Shown piece by piece: positions 26,659 through 35,567 of a stretch of 64,000 bases of DNA. The stretch comes from Blastococcus xanthinilyticus (GTDB taxonomy: Bacteria; Actinomycetota; Actinomycetes; Mycobacteriales; Geodermatophilaceae): positions 1-64,000 of the forward strand of contig NZ_VNHW01000015.1 of NCBI RefSeq assembly GCF_008124835.1. Direction: 5' to 3'. The position numbers and the translations under genes are program-made. How positions within the stretch are numbered: the stretch's first letter is position 1; each line of letters begins with the position of its first letter. The notes under the pieces are model-generated. The model ran no database searches. It was given only the letters and a program-made list of their open reading frames with translations, and was not told the origin of the DNA.

Positions 26659-28335
26659 GTGACCCCCGGCCCGGCCCGCGTCTCCCCCGGCACGCTCCAG
26701 GCCGCCTTCTGGCGGGTGCTGGACGCCAGCGAGCGGGAGGACCCCGCGCCCTTCGTCGCGCTGCTCGACGAGATCGACGCCCCGCTGGCCGCCGCGCCGG
26801 AGCCCGGCTGGGCCGCGTGGCGGCCCGCGCTGCACGCCCGGCGGTCGCTCGTGGAGGGCGACGTCGAGGCGGCCACGGGCGAGGTCGCCCTCGCCCGCGA
26901 GTTCCTCGAGCACTGCCCCGTCTCGGCCGAGACGGCCCTCCTCATGGCCTACCTGGCGCACATCGAGGCCGCCTCGGACCACCTCGACTCGGCCATGCTG
27001 CTGGCCGTCGACGCCAGCCTGCTGACCGACGGGCAGGCGGCGCAGCCCTCCCGCGCGCTGCTGCAGGCCCACCGCTGGCTGTCGATGACGCTGTCGGGGC
27101 TGGACCTCGAGGAGCTGGCCGTCGCGCACGCCGTGCGCGGGCACCAGGTGGCCCGGGCGCTGCCGGACGTCGGCGACCGGTGGCGGTTGCTGCTGCTCGC
27201 CGCCCGCCAGCACGTCGAGCTGGCCCAGACCCTGCGGCGCCGTGGGGAGACCGAGCGCGCGGCGCGGCTGGCCACCGAGGCGATCGCCTGCGCCAGCGAG
27301 GCGCGCGAGCTGCCCTGGGAGCCCGGGCCGGCCGAGGCCGACCTGCTCGACGTCGCGCAGGGCTGGGCGCTGATGTGCCGCGGCGACCTGGACGCCGCGG
27401 TGGGCCCGGTGCGGCGGGCGCGGCGCACCGTGCAGCGCGAGGGCGGCCTCTGGCTGCGCGGCTACACCGACCTGGTGCTGGCCCGGCTGCTGGCCGCGCT
27501 CGCCCGCCGCGACGGCGACGTCGTCCTCGGCGAGGAGGCGATCGGGCTGCTGGTCGAGGCCTCGGGGGAGTTCGCCGCGAGCGGTGACCGCCGCCGCTAC
27601 CGGCAGTGCCTGCTGGAGCTCGGCCAGGACAACGCCGACCTCGGCCGCCCGGCTGAGGCGCTGCACTGGCTGGAGGCCTACCGCGCCGAGACCGGCCGCG
27701 CGCACGCGCGCGGCCGGGAGATGTGGGCGGAGATGTTCGTCCGCCGCAGCCGGCTGCGCGAGGCCGAGCGCCAGGCGGCGGTGCTGCGCCGGCACGCGCT
27801 CGAGGACCCGCTCACCGGCCTCGGCAACCGGCGCAGCGCCGAGCGGCGGCTCGGCGCGCTGCGGCTGGGCGAGGAGCCGCTGTCGTTGGCGGTCGTCGAC
27901 GTCGACCGGTTCAAGGCGGTCAACGACGACACCTCGCACACCCACGGGGACGCCGTGCTGCGCCGGGTCGCGGACCTGCTGCGCGAGCACAGCCGCACCG
28001 ACGACGAGGTCTTCCGCTGGGCCGGGGACGAGTTCCTCGTGGTGCTGCCGACGGCGACCGAGGCGCAGGCCGTGGTGGTGATGGAGCGGCTGCGCTCGGC
28101 CGTCGCGGGCGCCGACTGGGCCGACCTGGAGCTGTCGGAGCCGGTCACGGTCAGCATCGGCGTGGCGACCGCCCCCGCCGCCCCCGAGGGGCAGCCGAGC
28201 CCCGTGGTCGGCTGGCGGGCGCTGTTCGACACCGCGGACCTCCACCTGTTCTCCGCCAAGCGGCTTGGCCGCAACCGGGTGCGGTCGCACGGGCCGACGG
28301 ATCCCACGCCCGCCGAGCGCGGGGCGAGCGCGTGA
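26659..28335 (+). CDS. TPR-GGDEF protein, probable diguanylate cyclase
   Basis: A 558-residue soluble protein. Residues 1 to about 370 are alpha-helical repeats of TPR type, rich in Ala/Leu. The GGDEF domain (about 385-545) begins DPLTGLGNRRSAERRL, has VDVDRFKAVND for metal binding, and an active loop RWAGDEFLVVLP, an AGDEF variant of GGDEF. An RxxD product-inhibition site (RTDD) stands five residues ahead, as in active feedback-controlled cyclases. Expected product c-di-GMP from two GTP. No EAL domain. The stop overlaps the GTG of the next gene (GTGA), so the two cyclases are coupled. Preceded by GGAGGAGGGATGC. Confidence 0.92.
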   Translation: MTPGPARVSPGTLQAAFWRVLDASEREDPAPFVALLDEIDAPLAAAPEPGWAAWRPALHARRSLVEGDVEAATGEVALAREFLEHCPVSAETALLMAYLAHIEAASDHLDSAMLLAVDASLLTDGQAAQPSRALLQAHRWLSMTLSGLDLEELAVAHAVRGHQVARALPDVGDRWRLLLLAARQHVELAQTLRRRGETERAARLATEAIACASEARELPWEPGPAEADLLDVAQGWALMCRGDLDAAVGPVRRARRTVQREGGLWLRGYTDLVLARLLAALARRDGDVVLGEEAIGLLVEASGEFAASGDRRRYRQCLLELGQDNADLGRPAEALHWLEAYRAETGRAHARGREMWAEMFVRRSRLREAERQAAVLRRHALEDPLTGLGNRRSAERRLGALRLGEEPLSLAVVDVDRFKAVNDDTSHTHGDAVLRRVADLLREHSRTDDEVFRWAGDEFLVVLPTATEAQAVVVMERLRSAVAGADWADLELSEPVTVSIGVATAPAAPEGQPSPVVGWRALFDTADLHLFSAKRLGRNRVRSHGPTDPTPAERGASA

Positions 28336-31085
28336 GCGAACCGCACGCGTGGGACGGGAGGGACGGGACGGACGCGGGACGGCGCGTTTCCGGTGACGTG
28401 CTCGACACGTTGAGTAACGACATGCACAGTGCGCTCGTGCCCCCGGGAGCCCTGCACCACCGGGTGACCGCCGCCCTCAGCAACTGGCAGCTCGACGACG
28501 CCGAGCAGCTGCTCGCCGGGGCCGAGCGGGACGCCTCCCCCTACGTCGCGGCCGCACCGGCCGGCGGCGCGCCCGAGGCTGCCCCGACGTCGCTGGGCCG
28601 GGCCTGGGCGGACACGCTGCGCGCCGAGCTGCTGGTGCGCCGGCTGCGCGTCGCCGGGTTCACCCTCGTCGGCGACCCGGTGCCCAGCGGCTCCCCCGCC
28701 GGGCCGGCGCTGGACCTGCACGCGGGGGTCGCCGAGCTGATCGACGGCACCGCCGAGGACGCCGACCCGCGCGCGGAGTCCGCCTCCCGCGCGGCGCTCG
28801 CCATCGCGCTGGTCCGCTCCGCGAAGGCCGCCTTCGACGCCGCCGACGACGACCTCCAGCGGGCCGCCGGCCTCGCCCGGCACGCCCGCATCGAACTGCT
28901 GTCCCGCCGCATCGACGCCGCCATGGACGAGGCGGTCGAGGCGGCGAGCCTGCTCGACCCGGCGCTGGTGCCCAGCGCGCTGCTGGTCGACACCCTCGGC
29001 ACGCTGGCCGGCGTCCTGGCCGACCTGGAGCTCATGCCGCTGGCGCTGGACTACCAGCGCCGGGCGCACGAGACGGCGCAGGCCGCCGGGGCCGACCCCG
29101 CCGTCCTGGGCCCCGACGACCCCGATCCCGACGTGCTCGTCGCCGCGTCCGCCACCCAGCTCGGCGAGCTCTGCGCCGAGCTGGGCGAGGGCCTGCTGGA
29201 GGACGGCGCCGCCGAGTCCGCCCGGCCGTACTTCGCCGAGGCCCGGGAGCTGGCCGAGCAGGCGCTCGCCCAGCTGCCCCCGGGCGCTCCCGGCGTGGTG
29301 CCCGCCCAGGTGGTGCACGGCTGGGCGCTGGTGGGCCTGGACGAGCAGGCCGCCGCCGTCGGGCAGCTGCGGGGCGCCGTCCGGCTCTCCGCGGCCGCCG
29401 CCGACCGCGACCGGCTGGCCTCGGCGCAGCTGGCCCTGGGCCGGGCGCTGCGCCGGCAGGGCGACGGCCGGGCCGGCGACGAACACCTGGTGGCGGCGCT
29501 GACGCTGGCCACCGAGCACGGCCTGCCCCGGCTCCGCCGGGCCGCGTTGCGCGAGCTGTGCACCCTGCACGCCGATCTGGACGACGCCGGCCGCGCGCTG
29601 CCCTACCTGCAGGCCTACCTGGCCGACGAGCTGGACCGCGTGGACGAGCGGCGCACCCGCTGGGTGGAGCTGTTCGGCCGCCGCAAGAGCCTGCTGGAGA
29701 CCGAGCGGGCCGCCGGCCAGCTGCGCCGGCAGGCCTACGAGGACCCGCTCACCCACCTGCCCAACCGCCGCTACGCGGAGGCCCGGCTCGACGGCCTGCT
29801 GGCCGCCGGCGACGTGCCGGCCCTCGCCGTGGTCGACGTCGACCGGTTCAAGTCGATCAACGACTCCATCGGCCACCCCGGCGGTGACGCGGTGCTCCGC
29901 GCGATCGGCGAGCTGCTGGTCGCCGGCGTCCGCGACACCGACGAGGTCTGCCGCTGGGCCGGCGACGAGTTCGTCATCCTGCTGCCCGAGACCACCGCCG
30001 AGCAGGCGGAGCGGGCCCTGGAACGGATCCGCGCCTCGGTCGCCCGGTACCCGTGGGTGGAGCTCGGGCTGGATCTCCCGGTCACCATCAGCGCCGGCAT
30101 CGCCTCGGCCACCCGCGGCGACGACCGCAAGACCCTCTTCGCCGCCGCCGACGGCGTGCTCTACGACGCCAAGCGCAGCGGCCGCGACCGCGTGGTCCGG
30201 CTCTCCGCGCTGACCCAGACCCGGGCGGAGGACACCCGGCCCGGCGGTGCACCGGCGGCTCCGGCCCGGGTGCCCGCGGTCGCCGTCCCCGCCGTCCCGG
30301 TCGTTGCCGCCGTCCCGGTCGCGGACGCCGACCGCGCGGCCGCCGCCGTGCGCGGCGAGGCCGCGGGCTTCGCCTCGCTGCTCACCGACCCCTACGTCGC
30401 CCTGGCGACCGACCGGCCCGGCGAGCCGGTGCTCGGCCCGCTGCCGGCCGGCCCGGTGCAGACCGCGGCGCAGCCCGAGGTCGTGTGGGCCACCGGGCGC
30501 AGCACCGAGCAGGTGCTGGCCCTGGTCGCCCGGGCCCGCGCCGAGTTCCCCGACCGCCCGGCGCTGGTGCTGCGCGCCGCCCCCGAGACGCTGGTGGCGC
30601 TGGCCGCCGAGCACGGCCCGGCGACCACCATGGACGCCGCGGCGATGGCCGCCGCGATCGGCCCGCTCCCCTCGCCCGTGGGCCGGGCGACCGTGCTCTG
30701 CCCCGGCGGGCCGGACACCCCGGTCGCCGCCGAGGTGGCGTTCGTCGCCCGCGTCGCCGGCACCGAGGCGCGGCGGATCGACGACCTCACCGGGGCCGTC
30801 GGCACGCCGGACGGGGACCGCACGCCGCTCGAGGACGCCGACTGCCTCGTCGTGGTCGCCGGCGCCGAGGCCTCGCTCGCCGCGGTCGTCGCCGCGCGCA
30901 CCGACGTCCCGGTCGTCGCCGTGCCCACCTCCGCCGGTCAGCCGGTGGCGTTCGGCGGGCTCGCGGCGCTGCTGACGATGCTGAGCTCCGCCGCTCCGGG
31001 TGTCGTGGTGAGCACCGTGGACAACGGCTACTCCGCCGGGGTGTTCGCCGCCCGCGTGGCCCGGCGCGCTGCTGCTACACGGTGA
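28332..31085 (+). CDS. TPR-GGDEF protein fused to a C-terminal LarB-like domain
   Basis: A 917-residue protein. Residues 1-460: helical TPR-like region. About 470-625: GGDEF with DPLTHLPNRRYAEARL, VDVDRFKSINDSIG and RWAGDEFVILLP (AGDEF), plus RxxD (RDTD) upstream. About 626-714: Ala/Pro/Val linker (APARVPAVAVPAVPVVAAVP). About 715-910: a LarB/PurE-like domain: PEVVWATGRSTEQV, VVVAGAEASLAAVVAARTDVPVVAVPTS, FGGLAALLTMLSSAAPGVVVSTVDNGYSAG. LarB carboxylates and cleaves nicotinic acid adenine dinucleotide in nickel-pincer nucleotide synthesis. Its catalytic cysteine (Cys221 in L. plantarum, in LNSCA as I recall) is Ala887 here, while the Glu of the GMEG loop is kept. There is no ribosome site before the LarB part. 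larC follows. Confidence 0.85.
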   Translation: MSEPHAWDGRDGTDAGRRVSGDVLDTLSNDMHSALVPPGALHHRVTAALSNWQLDDAEQLLAGAERDASPYVAAAPAGGAPEAAPTSLGRAWADTLRAELLVRRLRVAGFTLVGDPVPSGSPAGPALDLHAGVAELIDGTAEDADPRAESASRAALAIALVRSAKAAFDAADDDLQRAAGLARHARIELLSRRIDAAMDEAVEAASLLDPALVPSALLVDTLGTLAGVLADLELMPLALDYQRRAHETAQAAGADPAVLGPDDPDPDVLVAASATQLGELCAELGEGLLEDGAAESARPYFAEARELAEQALAQLPPGAPGVVPAQVVHGWALVGLDEQAAAVGQLRGAVRLSAAAADRDRLASAQLALGRALRRQGDGRAGDEHLVAALTLATEHGLPRLRRAALRELCTLHADLDDAGRALPYLQAYLADELDRVDERRTRWVELFGRRKSLLETERAAGQLRRQAYEDPLTHLPNRRYAEARLDGLLAAGDVPALAVVDVDRFKSINDSIGHPGGDAVLRAIGELLVAGVRDTDEVCRWAGDEFVILLPETTAEQAERALERIRASVARYPWVELGLDLPVTISAGIASATRGDDRKTLFAAADGVLYDAKRSGRDRVVRLSALTQTRAEDTRPGGAPAAPARVPAVAVPAVPVVAAVPVADADRAAAAVRGEAAGFASLLTDPYVALATDRPGEPVLGPLPAGPVQTAAQPEVVWATGRSTEQVLALVARARAEFPDRPALVLRAAPETLVALAAEHGPATTMDAAAMAAAIGPLPSPVGRATVLCPGGPDTPVAAEVAFVARVAGTEARRIDDLTGAVGTPDGDRTPLEDADCLVVVAGAEASLAAVVAARTDVPVVAVPTSAGQPVAFGGLAALLTMLSSAAPGVVVSTVDNGYSAGVFAARVARRAAATR

Positions 31086-31388
31086 TCCTCCGGATCACAC
31101 CGCGGCCAGGTGCCGTCCCCCACCTGCGCTGAGCCGTTGCCCATGTCCCCGTCGGGAGGCCTCCGGCCCCCGCGACGGGTCCACCGCGGCCAGGTGCCGT
31201 CCCCCACCTGCGCTGAGCCGTTGCCCATGTCCCCGTCGGGAGGCCTCCGGCCCCCGCGACGGGTCCACCGCGGCCAGGTGCCGTCCCCCACCTGCGCTGA
31301 GCCGTTGCCCATGTCCCCGTCGGGAGGCCTCCGGCCCCCGCGACGGGTCCACCGCGGCCAGGTGCCGTCCCCCACCTGCGCTGAGCCG
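31082..31388 (-). repeat. 84-bp structured tandem repeat (3.4 copies) between the LarB fusion gene and larC
   Basis: Units start at 31101, 31185, 31269 and 31353 (last one 36 bases), essentially identical. Each holds a CCCGTCG...CGACGGG hairpin enclosing the palindrome GGAGGCCTCC, and an AGGTG...CACCT stem. The left end is a 7-3-7 dyad (31082-31098) that includes the stop codon of the LarB fusion gene. The whole element, with the dyad, recurs singly ahead of guaB1 (15821-15923). Together with the next repeat this fills most of the 418-base gap. Confidence 0.9.
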
Positions 31389-31400
31389 CTGACCCACCGC

Positions 31401-31477
31401 CGTCCTGGCTCACCATGAGGGGTCCTGGCTCACCGTCGACGCTGAGCCAGGACCACTGACGATCAGGTGACCTGATC
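31401..31477. repeat. composite palindromic intergenic repeat (copy B)
   Basis: Arms GGTCCTGGCTCA (31421-31432) and TGAGCCAGGACC (31443-31454) flank a GTCGAC core; an extra direct arm lies at 31402-31412. Then GATCAGGTGACCTGATC (31461-31477). Same two palindromes as at 1506-1591, in reverse order. It ends 26 bases before larC, where a -35 region would lie. Confidence 0.85.
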
Positions 31478-31503
31478 ACGCTGGAGGACGGCATGATCGG
31501 GGC

Positions 31504-32715
31504 GTGACCATCGGGTGGCTGGATCTGGCGGCCGGCGCGTCGGGGGACATGCTGCTCGGCGCGATGGTCGACGCAGGGGTGCCGCTCGACGTGCCGGGCG
31601 AGGCGGTCGCCGCGCTGCCGGTGGAATCGGTGCGGCTGGAGAGCGAGCAGGTCACCCGGCACGGGCTGGGCGCCACCCGCGTCCACGTGCACGCTCCGCC
31701 CACGGACGCCGCCCGCACGTGGGCCGACGTCCGCGCCCTGCTGACCGGCTCCGCGCTGCCGCCGCCGGTGCGTGACGGAGCGCTGGCGGTGTTCGAGCGG
31801 CTGGCCGTCGCCGAGGGCCGGGTGCACCGCACCGATCCCGAGCAGGTGCACTTCCACGAGGTGGGGGCGCTCGATGCGCTGGCCGACGTCGTCGGGGTGG
31901 TCGCCTGCCTGGAGTACCTGGAGCTGGACCGGCTGTCCGCCTCCCCGGTGGCGCTGGGCAGCGGCTCGGCCCGCGGGGCGCACGGGGTCGTGCCGATCCC
32001 GGGGCCGGCGGTGCTGGAGCTCCTGGCCGGGGTCCCGGTGCACGCCGGGCCGGTGCCGGCCGAGATGTGCACCCCGACCGGCGCCGCGCTGCTGGCCGCC
32101 CGCGTCGACGAGTGGACGACGCTGCCCGCGCTGCGCCCGGAGCGGGTGGGCACCGGCGCCGGGAGCCGCGACCCCGCGGAGCTGCCCAACGTGGTCCGCC
32201 TGGTGCTCGGCGAGCCCGCCGACCCGGCGCCGGCCCGCCCGGTGGTGCTGGAGACGAACGTCGACGACCTCGATCCACGGCTGTGGCCGGGCGTCCTCGA
32301 CGCGCTGCTCGCCGCCGGGGCAGCCGACGCGTGGCTGACGCCGATCCTCATGAAGAAGGGCCGGCCGGCGCACACCCTGTCGGTCCTGTGCCGGCCCGAG
32401 GCCGTACCCGCGGTGCAGGCCACCGTCTTCGCGACGACGTCGACGATCGGCCTGCGGGTGGTGGAGGTCGGCAAGGTGGCGCTGGAGCGCAGCACCGCGA
32501 CCGTCGACGTGCTCGGCGGGGAGGTCGGGGTGAAGCTCGCCGTCAGCGAGGGTCGGCTGGTGAACGTGAGCGTCGAGTTCGAGGACGTCGCCGCCCTCGC
32601 CCGCGACCGCGCCCTGCCGGTGAAGGAGGTGCTGCGCGCGGCCGGTGCCGCCGCGGCCGCCGCCCACCCGATCGGCCCCGCGACGCCGGGCGGCACCGCC
32701 CCGCTCTGGAGCTGA
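31504..32715 (+). CDS. larC: nickel-pincer cofactor biosynthesis protein LarC (cyclometallase)
   Basis: A 403-residue LarC. N-terminal WLDLAAGASGDMLLGAMVDAGVP matches the family start; VHFHEVGALDALADVVGVVACLEYL, SPVALGSGSARGAHGVVPIPGPAVLELL and CTPTGAALLAA follow; the C-terminal nickel/CTP part has ETNVDDLDPRLWPGVLDALLAAGAADAWLTPILMKKGRPAHTLSVLC. LarC inserts nickel into the thiocarboxylated pyridinium mononucleotide using CTP. It is one continuous frame, without the frameshift known in Lactiplantibacillus. GTG at 31504 with CATGAT 6 bases upstream suggests a leaderless message. LarE and LarA are not in this window. Confidence 0.92.
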   Translation: MTIGWLDLAAGASGDMLLGAMVDAGVPLDVPGEAVAALPVESVRLESEQVTRHGLGATRVHVHAPPTDAARTWADVRALLTGSALPPPVRDGALAVFERLAVAEGRVHRTDPEQVHFHEVGALDALADVVGVVACLEYLELDRLSASPVALGSGSARGAHGVVPIPGPAVLELLAGVPVHAGPVPAEMCTPTGAALLAARVDEWTTLPALRPERVGTGAGSRDPAELPNVVRLVLGEPADPAPARPVVLETNVDDLDPRLWPGVLDALLAAGAADAWLTPILMKKGRPAHTLSVLCRPEAVPAVQATVFATTSTIGLRVVEVGKVALERSTATVDVLGGEVGVKLAVSEGRLVNVSVEFEDVAALARDRALPVKEVLRAAGAAAAAAHPIGPATPGGTAPLWS

Positions 32716-33820: not shown

Positions 33821-34067
33821 GGCGAGCCGGGCGAGGGCCCGGGCCGGAGGCGGCAGCTCGGCGGTGTCGGATCAATGTCGGCGCATGCCGGGACCGTACC
33901 CTTCCCTTCCGGCCCCGGCCCTCCGTTCTCGCGGCCGCGGACCGGCACGGAGCGGGTGCCACCCGTGCGGGGGAACTGCTCCGCCGGGCCTCAACCACGT
34001 CCCGCGCCGCGCCGTTGCGGAACTGAACAGGCCGGAGCCACCGGCCTGCCCCGGAGGGACGCACGCC

Positions 34068-35567
34068 ATGACCAGCACGGCCGGGTCCGCACCCGCGCGC
34101 GGCCGTGCGGCCGGCCCGGGAGCCGACCCCGAGCTGCCGGTCATGGACGCCGACCCCGCCCTCGACGGCCTGGTGCGGGCCGCCGCCGCCCTGACGGGCA
34201 TGCGCTGCGCATCGGTGATCACCATGGACACCGCCGTCATGCGGGTCATGGCGGTGCACGGCTTCCGCGGGGCCTCCTGGCCGCGCGACGGCTCGGTCGT
34301 GGCGACGGTGCTCGCGCGCGGGCCGGGCGCGCAGACCTGCGACGACCTGGCCACCGAGACGCAGTTCGCCCGGAGCCCCTGGCTGGACGGCCGACGCGGC
34401 CGGATGCGGGCCTTCGGCTGCGCACCGGTGGTGCTGGACGGCGTCCTGCTGGCCGCCGTCTGCGTCTTCGACGACGCGCCGCACTCCTTCACCGACGCGG
34501 AGCGCAGCCGGCTCACCGACGTCGCCACCGCCGTCGCCGCCTTGGTGCGCGCGGCGCAGCAGGCCCGGGAGCTGGCCGACCTCGCCGCCGCGACCCAGCT
34601 CGCGCACACCGAGACCGCCCGGGCGCACGCCGAGCTCGCCCGCTCGACCGCGTTCACCCGCGCGCTGCTCGAGGTGCTGCCGGTCGGGGTCATCGGCGGG
34701 GACGCCGAGGGACGAGTGACCCTCTTCAACGCCACCGCCCGCGAATGGCACGGCCTGGACGCCGACCCCACGGTGGCCCTGGAGGACATCCCGCGCGCCT
34801 TCGGGCTCACCGACGTCCACGGCGCCCCCGTCGAGTACGAGGACGTCCCCTTCCGGCGGGTCTACACGGAGGGACGCGTGGACGACGCCGAGATGGGCAT
34901 CGCCCTCCCCGGCCGGAGCCTGCGCCGCGTATGCGGCTCGGGCGCCCAGGTGCGCGACGACGACGGCGCCCTGCTGGGCATCGTCGTGACGCTGACCGAC
35001 GTCACCGAGCAGCGTGCGCTGGAGGCCGCGCTCCGCGATGCGGCGCTGCACGACCCCCTCACCGGCCTGCCCAACCGGAACCTGCTCCTGGACCGGCTGG
35101 ACCAGAGCCTGGCCGCCGCCGAGCGGGCTCACCGGCCGATGGCGGTGCTGTACTGCGACCTCGACGGGTTCAAGCCGGTCAACGACACCGCCGGGCACGC
35201 CGCCGGTGACGAGGTGCTCGTGGCGGCCGCCGGCCGGCTGGCCGCCGCGGTCCGCCCCGGCGACACGGTGGCGCGCATCGGCGGCGACGAGTTCGTCGTG
35301 CTGTGCCCGGAGGCCGGCTCCGAGCAGGCCGCCCAGGTCATCGCCGACCGGATCACCGCCGCCTTCGACGAGCCCCTGCGCCGGGGGAACGGCGACGAGC
35401 ACGCCGTCGGCATCAGCATCGGGCTGGCGCTCTGCGGACCCGGTGAGACCCCCGACTCGGCGCTCGCGGCCTCCGACGCCGCCATGTACCGGGTGAAGGC
35501 GGCCCGCCGGGGCGCCCGCGTCCCCACGCCCCGCCCGGTGACCGATCCCACCGTCCCCGCTCCCTGA
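34068..35567 (+). CDS. GAF-PAS-GGDEF diguanylate cyclase
   Basis: A 499-residue soluble sensor. GAF-type domain about residues 30-165 (LVRAAAALTGMRCASVITMDTAVMRVMAVHGF ... FTDAERSRLTDVATAVAAL), a short coiled coil, PAS about 195-320 (LEVLPVGVIGGDAEGRVTLFNATAREWHGLD ... GIVVTLTDVTEQRALE), and GGDEF about 325-485 with DPLTGLPNRNLLLDRL, CDLDGFKPVND and a canonical RIGGDEFVVL loop. An RxxD inhibition site (RPGD) is correctly spaced. ATG at 34068 follows GGAGGGA. Third GGDEF protein within 9 kb, with no EAL or HD-GYP partner here. Confidence 0.93.
   Translation: MTSTAGSAPARGRAAGPGADPELPVMDADPALDGLVRAAAALTGMRCASVITMDTAVMRVMAVHGFRGASWPRDGSVVATVLARGPGAQTCDDLATETQFARSPWLDGRRGRMRAFGCAPVVLDGVLLAAVCVFDDAPHSFTDAERSRLTDVATAVAALVRAAQQARELADLAAATQLAHTETARAHAELARSTAFTRALLEVLPVGVIGGDAEGRVTLFNATAREWHGLDADPTVALEDIPRAFGLTDVHGAPVEYEDVPFRRVYTEGRVDDAEMGIALPGRSLRRVCGSGAQVRDDDGALLGIVVTLTDVTEQRALEAALRDAALHDPLTGLPNRNLLLDRLDQSLAAAERAHRPMAVLYCDLDGFKPVNDTAGHAAGDEVLVAAAGRLAAAVRPGDTVARIGGDEFVVLCPEAGSEQAAQVIADRITAAFDEPLRRGNGDEHAVGISIGLALCGPGETPDSALAASDAAMYRVKAARRGARVPTPRPVTDPTVPAP

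Follow-up and report, generated by a model that had tools for sequence, protein, structure and literature searches.

A predicted diguanylate cyclase of Geodermatophilaceae ends in an apparently inactive LarB-like domain

Why should a protein with the hallmarks of a diguanylate cyclase end in a domain that resembles an enzyme of nickel-pincer cofactor synthesis? The question is raised by a gene within a stretch of 64,000 nucleotides of Blastococcus xanthinilyticus (RefSeq assembly GCF_008124835.1, contig NZ_VNHW01000015.1, positions 1 to 64,000 of the forward strand), here denoted the window. The gene encodes a region resembling tetratricopeptide repeats (TPR), a GGDEF domain, a linker and a domain related to LarB (pyridinium-3,5-biscarboxylic acid mononucleotide synthase). 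Comparison across the family Geodermatophilaceae makes it quite probable that a catalytically dead LarB has been reused as a regulatory or oligomerisation module of the cyclase. The features of the gene are as follows.

28332-31085, + strand: TPR-GGDEF-LarB-like fusion gene, 917 amino acids (open frame of 917 codons)
28404-29696, + strand, limits approximate: TPR-like helical N-terminus and conserved connector into GGDEF (family homology)
29733-30191, + strand: GGDEF (diguanylate cyclase) domain, residues 468-620 (PF00990, 128.8 bits, cut-off 23.8)
29931-29942, + strand: RxxD inhibitory-site (I-site) motif RDTD, residues 534-537 (sequence; kept in relatives)
29958-29972, + strand: AGDEF active-site motif, residues 543-547 (sequence)
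30192-30467, + strand: variable Ala/Pro/Val-rich linker (sequence, family loci)
30468-31064, + strand: LarB-like domain, residues 713-911, by its sequence apparently catalytically dead (NCBIfam LarB)
30990-30992, + strand: codon of Ala887, at the position equivalent to LarB Cys221 (alignment)

An earlier note on this DNA, made from the letters alone, described a single uninterrupted frame with TPR repeats, a GGDEF domain with metal-binding and RxxD motifs, and a LarB-like part. The 917-codon frame and its Pfam and NCBIfam matches bear out this description, except that the TPR repeats hold by homology only, because relatives and not the window protein match TPR models. TPR_MalT is matched by 30 of 45 aligned family members and the TPR-like region contains long runs of invariant columns; no Pfam TPR model matched the window protein at E 0.1. 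Judged by its domain, active-site signature and I-site, the GGDEF part qualifies as a predicted diguanylate cyclase. In the family the motif has Ala in place of its first Gly, 66 of 70 frames reading AGDEF and the other 4 AGDEY, and R-x-x-D stands five residues before the motif in the window and in the 66 AGDEF frames printed. Diguanylate cyclases of the AGDEF type, such as VCA0965 of Vibrio cholerae, share this GGDEF domain and its RxxD I-site, and the fusion differs from them by the TPR-like N-terminus and the C-terminal LarB-like domain; VCA0965 is reported to make cyclic di-GMP (c-di-GMP) (PMC3974145). A working c-di-GMP signal is plausible in these bacteria, since the c-di-GMP target RsiG is given, in an excerpt of a second report, for 16 of 16 Geodermatophilaceae species examined (PMC8325347). 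The open-licence literature yielded nothing on Blastococcus and Geodermatophilus together with c-di-GMP, a single paper on Geodermatophilaceae and diguanylate cyclases, and nothing on GGDEF combined with LarB.

The Geodermatophilaceae are soil and stone bacteria, and our sample comprised 112 genomes of the family, 101 of which contributed one locus each with the fused-type domain. Six of the 101 loci reach a contig edge before GGDEF; both domains lie in one stop-free frame in 93 of the 95 loci where GGDEF is visible, with gaps of 154 to 508 bases between them. An assembly or frame error behind the join, which the earlier note had listed among the findings that would undo the fusion, was rejected on this ground. 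In the two remaining loci (L102 and L107) the domain frames differ through a shift inside the low-complexity linker, and one of the 93 (L045) has a stop before GGDEF. As for genomes that gave no such locus, nine from three genera (g5-g7) carry canonical LarB only and gave no hit for the TPR part, G080 has the TPR part on a contig that ends ~470 bases past GGDEF, and in G097 the TPR part was found and the fused-type domain was not, for which we assume a contig end.

The LarB-like domain shares the predicted fold of LarB from Lactiplantibacillus plantarum (7mj0-7mj2): the structural model is confident and superposes on 7mj0 and 7mj1. In the window, residues 713-911 match NCBIfam LarB (NF033503) at E 2.4e-37, but the score of 128.7 bits falls short of the curated cut-off of 175, and residues 836-910 match Pfam AIRC with 37.4 bits; compared with PurE (AIR carboxylase family, PF00731), the fused domain has an additional N-terminal part of the LarB type. 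Cys221, which we take to be the catalytic Cys of LarB, is present in 41 of 41 canonical LarBs of the family examined and in none of the 101 fused domains, one of which is truncated there. Rankin and colleagues reportedly described in 2021, to go by the title, a cysteinyl-pyridine intermediate in LarB; a search of the open-licence literature for LarB with Cys221 returned nothing. Ser127 is lost from the fused domains, His158 is retained in 8 of 101, Arg159 is lost in nearly all, and the N-terminal R-x-x-R-T-G element of LarB is mostly gone. An active LarB was rejected on these residues, and the fused domain is apparently catalytically dead. Two Cys-less fused copies of genus g9 (Modestobacter), both in genomes without LarE and LarC, pass the LarB cut-off (G090:C82:38469-39062, 177.3 bits; G093:C1:2485195-2485788, 178.7 bits). 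Because such scores exceed the cut-off, automatic annotation might label these copies LarB, and a genome with the fusion alone is not to be scored as a nickel-pincer maker.

Unlike LarB, the fused domain is joined to GGDEF and is kept without the pathway. Canonical LarB occurs in 73 of the 112 genomes (75 are over the cut-off, two of them through fused copies). LarE exceeds its own cut-off in 72, and the two proteins co-occur except in one genome with a LarE fragment. Among the 39 genomes without canonical LarB and LarE, 35 are at least 90% complete and 29 are also without LarC. All but one of these 39 carry the fused-type domain; among the 38, GGDEF can be seen in 35 and shares the frame of the domain in 34, the others having a contig end (G002, G081 and G096) or a frame shift (G046). 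Likewise, 28 of the 29 genomes without LarB, LarE and LarC carry the domain, 27 of them in frame, the missing one being G080. Occurrence with LarE and LarC, which is expected of a LarB, was thus not found to hold for the fused domain, and the phyletic pattern also led us to reject a functional unit with larC.

Pairwise ratios of nonsynonymous to synonymous substitution rates (dN/dS, Nei-Gojobori; 28 of 5050 pairs were dropped, with dS outside 0.15-1.2 or not computable) indicate purifying selection on the LarB-like domain, the median being 0.364 among pathway-positive genomes (1930 pairs), 0.388 in mixed pairs (2392) and 0.408 among pathway-negative genomes (700). Within Blastococcus, LarC gave 0.358 in four genomes that have retained larC but neither LarB nor LarE (6 pairs) versus 0.240 in ten pathway-positive ones (45 pairs), and the LarB-like domain of the same sets gave 0.137 versus 0.355; with seven pathway-positive genomes instead of ten, the values are 0.358 versus 0.208 for LarC and 0.137 versus 0.307 for the domain. 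Selection on larC, and not on the fused domain, is relaxed in these four genomes. A fifth pathway-negative Blastococcus (G018) was left out, its larC lying beyond the fetched stretch, which includes larC for 55 of the 101 loci. The LarC proteins of the four (L036, L039, L043 and L056) score 312-362 bits versus 421-439 in pathway-positive Blastococcus, with the frame still open, and these larC genes are apparently on their way out or have another use.

The fusion, its single clade (below), the loss of residues, the predicted LarB fold, the purifying selection and the independence from the pathway can all be read from the sequences; from there we infer that the LarB-like domain regulates the cyclase. 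A LarB that lost Cys221, Ser127, the R-x-x-R-T-G element and, nearly everywhere, His158 and Arg159 would have become a conserved pseudoenzyme domain. Since GGDEF domains are active as dimers and proteins of the PurE type assemble into octamers, the LarB-like tail could set cyclase assembly; in the most likely mechanism it would supply a PurE/LarB-type oligomer that determines how the GGDEF domains meet. Octamers are named in the titles of PurE/LarB structure entries. The N-terminal part of the domain, where 20 of 25 newly fixed positions lie, may present a conserved new surface that contacts another part of the protein, and cyclase assembly may be adjusted further by a small nucleotide that occupies the altered pocket. 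Cofactor synthesis would presumably be left to a separate canonical LarB and LarE, together with the LarC encoded beside the fusion. Several points weigh against this account. The oligomerisation and the domain contacts are suggested by analogy with the PurE/LarB fold; the dN/dS values are crude, coming from GC-rich genes and non-independent pairs, with 6 pairs only for the four-genome set; and the domain median is slightly higher without the pathway than with it, all medians being well below 1. The fused domain keeps 45 of 104 conserved LarB positions, which would fit a remaining ligand-binding role too, and its distance from LarB is uneven across the family, since the two g9 copies exceed the cut-off.

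The alternative that fares best is that the LarB-like domain is a true sensor, which would switch the cyclase on or off by binding, but not converting, a nucleotide such as nicotinic acid adenine dinucleotide, NAD or AMP; the earlier note had raised the sensing of the first two, and we regard a sensor as a tentative possibility. LarB has been solved with AMP (7mj0) and with NAD (7mj1), the two structures on which the domain model superposes. D128, E134, D/E180, VPTS 198-201 and D231 are retained in at least 99 of the 101 fused domains, and some of the residues that replaced the old site recur across the family (Q204 in 80, R158 in 80 and P205 in 68 of 101). However, the positions around Cys221 and at 126-127, 154-159 and 204-206 have been replaced in a manner that is not uniform over the family, and most newly fixed positions are found in the N-terminal part instead. 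The more specific proposal, that the dead LarB, as a nucleotide sensor, links c-di-GMP synthesis to the status of NAD precursors or adenine nucleotides and was kept after pathway loss, is in our judgement rather doubtful.

Loss of catalytic residues, a variable linker, the frameshifts of L102 and L107 and the stop of L045 would also be expected if the domain were a functionless, decaying remnant that is read through for want of a stop. Such decay is improbable given the 42 invariant columns across 53 rows, dN/dS below 1, the stop-free frame from GGDEF to the domain in 93 of 95 loci and the confident model.

The earlier note had also offered the idea that c-di-GMP might control cofactor synthesis, and linkage of GGDEF-LarB to larC was examined as it suggested: in 62 of 101 genomes larC and the fused domain are no more than about 5 kb apart, whereas 11 have larC at another place and 28 have none (hand tally). 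Control of nickel-pincer cofactor synthesis by c-di-GMP or the cyclase, with the fused LarB and its neighbour LarC as the route, would fit this proximity, but it finds no support and seems very unlikely, because the Cys is lost, a canonical LarB is encoded elsewhere and the domain is kept in 38 of 39 pathway-less genomes; the 28 genomes without LarB, LarE and LarC and the 11 with larC elsewhere tell against it as well. The B. xanthinilyticus assembly is 100% complete in 38 contigs, and in it the separate genes that the earlier note had proposed to look for were found in part. A second, canonical LarB (235 bits, Cys present) is encoded on contig C19, convergent with LarE (254.7 bits), and the LarA family PF09861 has no match in the genome, which agrees with the statement that LarE and LarA are outside the window. 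The only larC of the genome is the copy next to the fusion. A missing LarA is not unusual, because ~15% of surveyed genomes have larB, larC and larE without larA, according to an excerpt of the survey (PMC11796402). One g9 genome (G091, with L107 and L173) combines a frameshifted fusion with two larC, several larB matches and three matches to larE that exceed the cut-off.

The linker stretch examined in the window contains five in-frame GTGs and zero ATGs, with no Shine-Dalgarno-like core upstream of any of the five, and a search of 93 family loci revealed no start of its own for the LarB part that is conserved. The earlier note, which saw no ribosome site with an in-frame start before the LarB part and took the linker for a genuine interdomain linker, is supported in both points. 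Synthesis of the GGDEF and LarB-like parts as two proteins through an internal start can hardly be credited: in-frame GTGs are common in linkers and 27 of 93 loci have a weak Shine-Dalgarno-like core with an in-frame start, but an in-frame ATG occurs in only 18 of 93, and two products would not need one frame kept over linkers of varied length.

The fused domain probably goes back to a single ancestral capture of larB, as judged from a tree of 64 rows (21 of the 101 fused domains, 23 of the 41 canonical LarBs of the family, 19 LarBs from outside it, and L. plantarum). The 21 fused domains form one clade (100/100) with a stem of 1.58 changes per column, placed inside a group with the larBs of g6, g7 and other families of the order (95/92), whose inner branching order the tree does not fix. 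The larE-linked LarB of B. xanthinilyticus belongs to a separate clade. LarBs fetched from outside the family have the Cys in 19 of 19 cases and a larC match alongside in 17 of 19. Similar fusions elsewhere in the order or class were not found among the matches listed from samples of the order (397 genomes) and the class (394 genomes); no search for an independent GGDEF-LarB fusion was made in other phyla. The best listed matches outside the family reach 238 (order) and 225.6 bits (class) versus 253-388 for fused copies, and nine class matches, picked mainly for long frames, have the Cys in 9 of 9 and no GGDEF match. A pattern-based scan of 84,980 species genomes gave 105 relatives, the best 80 of which are named as members of the family, apart from a 'Frankiales' metagenome-assembled genome and an UNVERIFIED_ORG Bacillus record; the scan and our family genome set overlap and are not independent evidence. 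The simplest account is a history with one fusion, in which a TPR-GGDEF gene would have been joined to the larB of an adjoining larB-larC operon in the ancestor of most Geodermatophilaceae. Catalysis would then have decayed, the other LarB taken over, and the whole pathway been lost repeatedly later; the larC beside the fusion is probably a remnant of the ancestral larB-larC operon.

The neighbourhood of the fusion in the window is as follows.

26659-28335, + strand: upstream TPR-like/GGDEF gene, 558 amino acids, paralogue without LarB domain (Pfam)
31098-31396, + strand: 84-bp tandem repeat, 3.5 copies, 99% match, between fusion and larC
31504-32715, + strand: larC, 403 amino acids (PF01969, 437.4 bits)
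33864-35567: third diguanylate cyclase (GAF, PAS_4, GGDEF), ~1.1 kb beyond larC

The fusion starts with a GTG that overlaps the TGA stop of its upstream neighbour, which has the same N-terminal layout and no LarB-like domain. Wherever a locus offers 1.5 kb or more of sequence ahead of the TPR part, this paralogue precedes the fusion (92 of 92 loci, 33 of which come from genomes with neither canonical LarB nor LarE), and the two neighbouring cyclases thus look like one conserved pair. With the third cyclase, three GGDEF genes lie inside 9 kb of the window. The 28-base core of the repeat has no other occurrence in the window. That larC follows the fusion, as the earlier note had it, is confirmed by Pfam and by the LarC1 and LarC2 models (TIGR00299 / NF052512), whose cut-offs the gene exceeds (195 and 135.3 bits).

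Together, these comparisons describe a natural case of an enzyme recycled into an apparent regulatory domain, which was probably captured once, apparently lost catalysis and has been conserved even without its parent pathway. c-di-GMP signalling in Geodermatophilaceae thereby gains a specific, testable module. Should the sensor reading be true, a second-messenger enzyme would, throughout a bacterial family, owe its input domain to an enzyme of cofactor synthesis.
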